From Longimicrobiales bacterium (lineage in GTDB: Bacteria > Gemmatimonadota > Gemmatimonadetes > Longimicrobiales > Gaopeijiaceae), in contig OX638356.1 in NCBI GenBank assembly GCA_951813395.1, positions 2,182,501 through 2,246,500 on the forward strand: a stretch of 64,000 bases of DNA, read 5' to 3'. Positions 34,734 to 49,252 of this stretch are shown in pieces (position 1 is the first letter of the stretch; every line of letters begins with the position of its first letter). The translations under genes were made by a program, and so were the position numbers. Under the pieces are notes generated by a model. That model was given only the letters and a program-made list of their open reading frames with translations, did no database searches and was not told the DNA's origin.

Positions 34734-34780
34734 GGTCCTCGCTCCTGGCCGATTGCCTGCACAGGTCGCTGTTTCCCGTT

Positions 34781-39584: not shown

Positions 39585-39658
<74 letters not shown>

Positions 39659-46342: not shown

Positions 46343-47044
46343 ATGACAAAATACCGCAAACCCGGATCCCGACCCAGCAAGCCCGTCAACCCGGCCGACC
46401 AGGAGGACGCTTTCGTCGCCAGGACACTGGAAGTCAGCAACTGGGCCCAGCGCAACAGGCCAACCCTGACCGCGGGCGTCATACTGGTGGGCCTGGGTAT
46501 CGTCGCCCTCGTCTACTACGCGCGGTACCGGGAGGACCTGGGCTTCGCCGCGGCTGCCGAGCTGGAGCAATTGCAGATGCGGCTCGACGCGGGGGACCAG
46601 GTCGGGGTCCAGGCGGACCTGCAGGTGTACCTGGAGCGTTTCGGGAGCACGTCAGCCGCGGGCGAAGCGCGCCTCACGCTGGGTCAGGTGACGGCGGATC
46701 TCGGCGACCTCGAAACGGCGGTTGAGGTGCTGGAGCCGATTGCGGGCGACGTCGGGAGTCCACTGGGGTCCCAGGCCGCGGCTCTTCTTGCCGCCATCTC
46801 CGAAGACGCCGGCAATCTCCAGGCCGCCGAGGGTCTGTACGAACGCCTCGCCGACCGGGCGAGACTGAGCTTCCTGGTGCGGGACGCGCTTGCGGATGAG
46901 GCGCGCCTGCGGGCCAGCCAGGGCGACCATGAGGCAGCGTTGGAGATCTATGACCGCCTGCTCGACGAGATGGACGAGGGGGATCCGGACCGGGGGATCG
47001 TGGAGATGCGCCGGGCCGAGGTGGCGGCCGCGCTGAACCAGTAG
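46343..47044 (+). CDS. YfgM-like TPR protein with one membrane helix
   Basis: The 233 residues have a 40-residue cytoplasmic N-terminus, one membrane helix (LTAGVILVGLGIVALVYYARY, about 43-63) and a periplasmic run of TPR-like helices. The layout matches YfgM-type proteins (TPR_21), which associate with the SecYEG translocon and periplasmic chaperones. The similarity is architectural, so I do not assign the symbol. Its stop is about 40 bases before the dif-like site. Confidence 0.75.
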   Translation: MTKYRKPGSRPSKPVNPADQEDAFVARTLEVSNWAQRNRPTLTAGVILVGLGIVALVYYARYREDLGFAAAAELEQLQMRLDAGDQVGVQADLQVYLERFGSTSAAGEARLTLGQVTADLGDLETAVEVLEPIAGDVGSPLGSQAAALLAAISEDAGNLQAAEGLYERLADRARLSFLVRDALADEARLRASQGDHEAALEIYDRLLDEMDEGDPDRGIVEMRRAEVAAALNQ

Positions 47045-47086: not shown

Positions 47087-47114
47087 ACGTCGCATAATAT
47101 GTATTATGTCAAGT
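47087..47114. other. dif: Putative chromosomal dif site (XerC/XerD recombination site)
   Basis: An AT-rich 28-base element lies in the 178-base gap between two convergent genes. The left arm ends CGCATAA (47091-47097), identical to the inner seven bases of the E. coli XerC arm. The six-base centre is TATGTA. The right arm TTATGTCAAGT (47104-47114) matches the E. coli XerD arm TTATGTTAAAT at nine of eleven positions. The inner arms form the palindrome CATAATA/TATTATG. Genes right of it are all minus-strand and genes left of it mostly plus-strand, as expected at a replication terminus. XerC and XerD use dif to resolve chromosome dimers at cell division. Confidence 0.75.
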
Positions 47115-47222: not shown

Positions 47223-48317
47223 CTACCGGAACAGCTCCTCCACGCGTGCCGCCAGCCCTCTGTTTATCGGCGCGCTCGACGTGTTGGCGACGATCGCCAC
47301 GATCACGCCGGTATCGCGGTTCAGCGTCAGCACCGTCCGTCCCCCCACGGACCCGCCGGTGTGCGACACCACTTGCTCACCGTAATCGTTGGTTGCGCTG
47401 CCCCAGCCGATGCCATATCCGGTCTCGTCGCCGCCGGCAGTCCTTTGTGAGGTGAACAGCAGTTCCAGGGTCTCGGCCTGAAGGAAACCCGGTTCCAGGT
47501 GCCCGTTCGCAAACCGGAGCAGGTCCTCCGGCGTTGAGAGGAATCCTCCTCCCGCCCACTTGTAGCTGTTGTCCACGTACGGGGCGTTCAGGACCTCGCC
47601 CGTGGCCGACAGCACGTAGAACCGCGTCCGATGCGCGATAATGCTGTCCGTGTGGCCCGCAACCGTGTGCTCCATCGCCAGCGGACCGAACACCGCGCGG
47701 TCCATGTAGCCGAGGAACGGCTCTCCGCTTGCGCCCTCGATCACCGCGCTGATCAGATTCCACGCGTACGACGAGTAGACGTATTCGGTACCGGGTTCGT
47801 TGATCAGCGGGTCGTCCTGGAAGATCGCGAGTCCGGACAGGACCGTCGGGTAGCGGACCGAAGAGAAGTTCTCGTCCCCCTGGTAGTGCCGGATTCCCCC
47901 CAGGTGTCCCGCCAGCAGCCGTGTGGTGACCGGCCACTGCTTCTCCGGAAAGGACGGCACGTACGTCTGCACCGGCGCGTCCAGGTCCAGCGCACTGTCT
48001 TCCACCAGTACTCCGATGGCAGCCGCCGTGATCGGCTTGGACACGCTGCCGATCCGGAACTTCGTGAGGGGTGTCACTCTTATGTTATGAGTTAGGTCAG
48101 CATATCCAAAACCTTCTGACCAAATAACTTGTGATCCCATACCCACGGCCACGGAAAGGCCGGGAATCGAGTTGGTCTCCATCACCGAGTCCAGCAGGGC
48201 GCGGGCGGCTACGACACTCTGACTCTGCTCGCTCTCACACGCCACGCCTACCAGGCATGCCGACAAGGCGGAAAGGCCGACCCATCGGCCGGCGCGCGGA
48301 CGTCTGCTTGAATTCAT
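47223..48317 (-). CDS. Serine hydrolase lipoprotein, beta-lactamase (S12) family
   Basis: ATG at 48317 gives 364 residues. A signal peptide ends in a lipobox-like GVAC (Cys about residue 27). The S12 motifs are the nucleophile SVSK near residue 91, YSSYAWN for the YxN-type tyrosine, and HTGGSVGG for the KTG-equivalent. These fit class C / D-alanyl-D-alanine peptidase relatives and esterases; true beta-lactamase activity is not implied. Codons about 59-80 (48137-48072) are strikingly AT-rich compared with the rest (see findings). The gene begins nine bases after the proline dehydrogenase stop. Confidence 0.87.
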   Translation of the reverse strand: MNSSRRPRAGRWVGLSALSACLVGVACESEQSQSVVAARALLDSVMETNSIPGLSVAVGMGSQVIWSEGFGYADLTHNIRVTPLTKFRIGSVSKPITAAAIGVLVEDSALDLDAPVQTYVPSFPEKQWPVTTRLLAGHLGGIRHYQGDENFSSVRYPTVLSGLAIFQDDPLINEPGTEYVYSSYAWNLISAVIEGASGEPFLGYMDRAVFGPLAMEHTVAGHTDSIIAHRTRFYVLSATGEVLNAPYVDNSYKWAGGGFLSTPEDLLRFANGHLEPGFLQAETLELLFTSQRTAGGDETGYGIGWGSATNDYGEQVVSHTGGSVGGRTVLTLNRDTGVIVAIVANTSSAPINRGLAARVEELFR

Positions 48318-48325
48318 TGTTCTGT

Positions 48326-49252
48326 TCACCAGGGAAGCATGCTGCGGACGACGAAGGCGACATTGGCTGGACGTTCGGCCAGTCGCCTGACGTACCAGGG
48401 GAACCAGTGTTCGCCGTAGCTGATGAGAACCCGGACGCTCCGCCCCCGCCAGGCGAGACGAAACTGTTCGCGCTGGGAGATGCCGTAGAGCATCTGGTAT
48501 TCGTACGCTTCGGACGCGACGGCGTTCGACTGCGCCCATTCGTCGATTCGGGCGATCAGCTTTGCGTCGTGGGTGGCCAGACCGGCACGCGTTCCCGCCT
48601 CAAGGGCATCGGGTGCCAGCATGCGCGTGGTCAGATCGAAGAACGCCTGGTCGACGTCCGCCTTGTCCGGAAACGCGATCTCCGCGGGCTCGGCGTAGGC
48701 ACCCTTCACCAGCCGTATGCCGGGACCCAGGGGGATGAGCGACTCCAGGTCCGCCGGAGTGCGGTAGAGGTAGGACTGCAGGCATATGCCGAATCTGGCG
48801 TGGTCGGCGCGGATGGAGCGGTACAGCTCCAGCGTCGGATCCACGTAGCGGCTGTACTCCATGTCGATCCAGACCCAGTTCCCGTGCGCCTCCGCCGAAC
48901 GCGTGATCAGGCGCAGGTTCTCTTCCGCGACGTCGATCCCCAGATCCAGGCCCAGGTGGGTGGGTTTGACGGACAATTCGGCGTCGAGACCACGCGAGGC
49001 GACTTCAAGGGTGGCCTGGACGTAGTGATCCGCGACCGCCCGGGCTTCGGTCCGGTCGGCGACGTTTTCGCCGAGGAAGGTGATCAGGGTCGGAATCCCC
49101 TGCCCCCGCTCCAGCACCCTGGCAGCGTCGAGCGCGTCGCCCAGGGTTTCGCCGGGCATGAACCTGCGCACGGCCCTTCGCACGAACCCGTACCGGGGTA
49201 GCGTGTTGCTGCACCACCTGTTCTCCGAGACCCACAGAAGTGCCGAGCGCAT
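48326..49252 (-). CDS. Proline dehydrogenase
   Basis: This is a FAD-dependent monofunctional proline dehydrogenase that oxidises proline to pyrroline-5-carboxylate. ATG at 49252 gives 308 residues, the size of the single-domain enzymes of Thermus and Deinococcus. Core barrel motifs are SVKPTHLGLD near residue 95, IDMEYSRYVDPTL near 130, VKGAYAEP near 180, and the C-terminal WYVRRLAERPANV, with the arginine pair that binds proline. No P5C dehydrogenase gene is adjacent. Confidence 0.93.
   Translation of the reverse strand: MRSALLWVSENRWCSNTLPRYGFVRRAVRRFMPGETLGDALDAARVLERGQGIPTLITFLGENVADRTEARAVADHYVQATLEVASRGLDAELSVKPTHLGLDLGIDVAEENLRLITRSAEAHGNWVWIDMEYSRYVDPTLELYRSIRADHARFGICLQSYLYRTPADLESLIPLGPGIRLVKGAYAEPAEIAFPDKADVDQAFFDLTTRMLAPDALEAGTRAGLATHDAKLIARIDEWAQSNAVASEAYEYQMLYGISQREQFRLAWRGRSVRVLISYGEHWFPWYVRRLAERPANVAFVVRSMLPW

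Follow-up and report, generated by a model that had tools for sequence, protein, structure and literature searches.

A probable chromosomal XerCD/dif site near the point opposite dnaA in a Longimicrobiales bacterium, and its conserved gene neighbourhood

The 28 bp at positions 47087-47114 of the window (the whole 64-kb stretch of DNA that was analysed, bases 2182501-2246500 of a genome consisting of a single contig of 4,091,820 bases, 4.09 Mb) are almost certainly the chromosomal XerCD/dif site of this bacterium, at which binding and recombination are predicted by homology. The site reads ACGTCGCATAA TATGTA TTATGTCAAGT and forms an imperfect palindrome with two 11-bp arms around a 6-bp centre. 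It lies in a gap of 178 bases that separates two convergent genes. The features of the locus are the following:

47087-47114, plus strand: dif site, 28 bp, recovered by pattern search, by profile search and in the alignment of conserved sites (A1)
47087-47097, plus strand: predicted XerC-binding arm, ACGTCGCATAA, with the CGYATAA core that is kept in relatives
47098-47103, plus strand: central region TATGTA, 6 bp, spacing the arms by six bases and variable in relatives
47104-47114, plus strand: predicted XerD-binding arm, TTATGTCAAGT, with TTATGT invariant in 24 relatives
46343-47044, plus strand: TPR_21 (YfgM-like) gene lying to the XerC-arm side and directed toward dif, conserved in position across the class (Pfam PF09976, 46.8 bits)
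47223-48539, minus strand: gene for a serine beta-lactamase-like protein, the right convergent neighbour, lineage-specific (Pfam PF00144; start codon uncertain)

A sequence-only reading of the window had proposed dif at these coordinates, with a left arm ending in CGCATAA, a six-base centre and TTATGTCAAGT as the right arm, all of which is borne out. Its claim that this is the only markedly AT-rich palindrome between genes agrees with our finding that no other AT-rich inverted repeat in the 64-kb window has perfect arms of at least 7 bases, and the convergent orientation of the flanking genes is likewise as it described. Measured against E. coli dif, the right arm matches the XerD arm at nine of eleven positions, the very count given before. 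Against the dif reading, the XerC arm shares just seven of eleven positions with its E. coli counterpart.

Uniqueness and conservation of the site

A dif site is expected once per chromosome, and this is what the pattern and profile searches of the genome returned. The core dif pattern without mismatch has one match genome-wide, at 47087-47114; the remaining matches all carry two mismatches and occur at the frequency seen for a reversed control. A dif profile was also built from the sites of 24 relatives, leaving the site itself out. In the search of the genome with this profile, the window site scored 31 bits (E 1.1e-6), and the only further match was the opposite-strand reading of the same palindrome, so that the site is the single significant match of the chromosome.

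Relatives carry the same kind of site. Metagenome assemblies assigned to Gemmatimonadota supplied the close relatives of a gene in the window. Matches with at most one mismatch were found in 178 of 200 sampled genomes of the phylum. When as many as two mismatches are allowed, 51 of the 58 genomes of the family match, some of these matches being due to chance. The alignment of the 24 relatives showed that the CGYATAA core and the invariant TTATGT frame a centre that varies.

These observations bear on two other explanations. An AT-rich palindrome between convergent genes could be a transcription terminator, as terminators are common in such positions, or could have arisen by chance. No terminator-like site was found, however, and the dif-type pattern, which matches once in the window, gave no match in 100 shuffles. 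The 28 bp are moreover kept across the genomes of the phylum and coincide with the switch in KOPS polarity described below. Conservation and uniqueness contradict a terminator or chance origin, which we consider extremely improbable. Mobile elements that exploit the Xer recombinases and carry dif-like sites are known to exist, and the site could in principle be the attachment site of such an element (an IMEX or a plasmid pdif) rather than the dif of the host. An element of this type would be bounded by paired dif-like sites, whereas only one site is present in the window and in the genome. Its position and the flanking TPR gene are furthermore conserved across the class, and it sits at the polarity switch. 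Since no second dif-like site bounding an element was found in the window or the genome, an attachment site was rejected as very improbable. IMEX are treated elsewhere (PMC5357621).

Terminus position, polarity and recombination proteins

The identification of the locus as a host dif site agrees with its place on the chromosome. As dnaA is located at 264 kb, the opposite point of the chromosome falls at approximately 2,310 kb; the distance from there to dif is about 80 kb, or 2% of the genome. The measurements of GC skew cover forty samples of 20 kb, grouped by splitting the chromosome at dif and at the dif antipode, and a stretch of 464 kb around dif, in which the 5 kb immediately left of the window read N. 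The sampled skew was positive in 17 of 20 samples on the half running from the origin side to dif and negative in 14 of 20 on the other half (Mann-Whitney p 1e-4). Over 200 kb on either side, the skew is +0.033 left of dif and -0.036 right of it, and the sign switches at dif. Against the dif reading, the skew is weak, and at base level it peaks about 12 kb to the left, at window position 34735 (4714, as compared with 4617 at dif), where it coincides with the start of the minus-strand genes at 34.8-39.7 kb. This minus-strand stretch, which breaks the local polarity, is edged by a tRNA-Arg (CCT) gene at 39585-39658 on the minus strand; the tRNA gene could mark an inserted island.

The polarity of the KOPS-type octamer GGGNAGGG reverses at dif as well. 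In the 464 kb around dif, 102 of 121 copies point toward dif and 19 point away, and the single best switch point falls between -1086 and +1914 bp relative to the site. The bias is weaker in genome-wide samples and is least far from dif. In the sampled sequence, GGGAAGGG is the octamer with the strongest strand bias.

The sequence-only reading had proposed that the chromosome terminus probably falls within the window, and the near-opposition of dif to dnaA together with the switch in KOPS polarity upholds this claim. The skew change it anticipated does occur at dif in sign, the exact maximum being displaced as given above. Its picture of the gene strands on either side of the site agrees as far as conserved genes go, and the G and C counts of its two sampled 60-base lines are correct. 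The presence of xerC and xerD, on which it had made its proposal depend, was found as well, together with ftsK.

XerD is a 309-aa recombinase encoded at 2255713-2256642 of the genome, about 26 kb to the right of dif and beyond the window; it scored 330.0, narrowly above the NCBIfam equivalog cut-off of 329.6. A second Xer gene is found at about 1,904 kb, some 325 kb from dif. XerC is its best model, and its score of 305.5 is under the NCBIfam cut-off of 335, which counts against the dif reading. The FtsK gene, at 1,376 kb, encodes alpha, motor and gamma domains; the chromosome has both an FtsK with a gamma domain and KOPS aimed at dif.

By homology with characterized systems, the parts would work as follows. 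An odd number of crossovers between sister chromosomes would produce a chromosome dimer. FtsK would load on KOPS of the type found here, which aim at dif in both replichores, and its pumping of DNA would bring the two copies of dif together at the division septum. There XerC would bind the left arm and XerD the right arm, and XerD, once activated by contact with the gamma domain of FtsK, would carry out the first strand exchange over the 6-bp central region. A second exchange by XerC would then turn the dimer into two monomers. The binding, the order of cleavage, the activation by FtsK and the resolution of dimers are all predicted from homologous proteins and sites.

Gene neighbourhood of dif

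The gene order around dif is conserved. The TPR_21 gene, on the XerC-arm side and aimed at dif, was found at 77 of 98 dif loci from many families of the class, some of the misses being loci clipped at contig ends; just one further locus of the 98 has TPR_21 in another arrangement. In four of four genomes of a family from another class of the phylum (f10), no TPR_21 gene was found within 1.5 kb of dif. The right neighbour is not conserved in the same way, as the beta-lactamase-like gene is linked to dif in only six other loci of the family.

In all but two (G004 and G040) of the 23 relatives that could be assessed, that is in 21, the xerD gene is found 17-30 kb from dif on the XerD-arm side and converges on it; besides these, dif and xerD were on separate contigs in two genomes, and no xerD was found in one. 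Proline dehydrogenase and a cation transporter were used as linkage controls. The former is near dif only in some genomes of family f1 and the latter only in G025, although both are weak controls because they have paralogues.

Comparison with G073, from another family of the same class, revealed a block of collinear genes that begins about 46 kb to the left of dif and ends 37 kb to its right. The block comprises two runs, of 32 and 33 kb, with 20 reciprocal best hits in each. All of them point at dif, and the runs part at dif, where few genes are shared. No other collinear stretch within the 464 kb examined is as long, the next longest runs being 17-19 kb; the gene-order comparison rests on 1.2 Mb of one genome of family f5.

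In one genome (G187), a single contig (C1) holds two copies of the dif-TPR locus (L175 and L189) with 70% nucleotide identity and in opposite orientation, only one of which is near xerD. This is possibly a chimeric assembly, or else a second replicon or a duplication.

Selection for the linkage of dif and xerD was considered and not adopted, because collinear stretches of 17-19 kb occur elsewhere too. The block around dif could be held passively, by selection against relocation of dif or against flips of polarity nearby. A selectively maintained terminus module in the class Gemmatimonadia, made up of dif, the TPR_21 neighbour and xerD, in which the TPR_21 membrane protein would help to handle the terminus at the septum, seems unlikely to us; passive retention of gene order is the simpler explanation. 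The TPR protein could conceivably have some functional connection with the terminus.

Relation to known systems and significance

The site resembles the XerCD-dif system of E. coli and other Proteobacteria in its 28-bp length, its 11-6-11 layout, its near-identical XerD arm and its two recombinases, as well as in the gamma domain of FtsK and the GGGNAGGG polarity. Unlike E. coli dif, it has a diverged XerC arm and the centre TATGTA in place of TGTATA, and it lies inside a conserved gene block with xerD nearby. In XerS/difSL and XerH/difH, the recombinase gene is immediately beside or near the site and the recombinase acts alone (PMC5357621). Those systems share with this one the presence of a recombinase gene in the vicinity of dif, whereas here there are two recombinases and xerD is 17-30 kb away.

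A dif site was predicted by profile in one Gemmatimonadetes genome by Kono et al. 2011 (PMC3025954), that is, in the same phylum and of the same kind. Because of this earlier prediction, the present site belongs to a known kind, and the conserved block is a modest addition to an ordinary dif site. Among the papers searched, none mentions a dif site together with Gemmatimonas. Kono et al. reported xerC in most cases close to dif and xerD close to the origin; in this class it is xerD that is near dif, and in this genome xerC is distant, which is a difference of map position and not of mechanism.

The dif site shows where the terminus of this chromosome lies, and with it a clean dif profile and a polarity map are gained for a little-studied phylum. 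The block centred on dif is a starting point for asking what keeps gene order frozen near the terminus.
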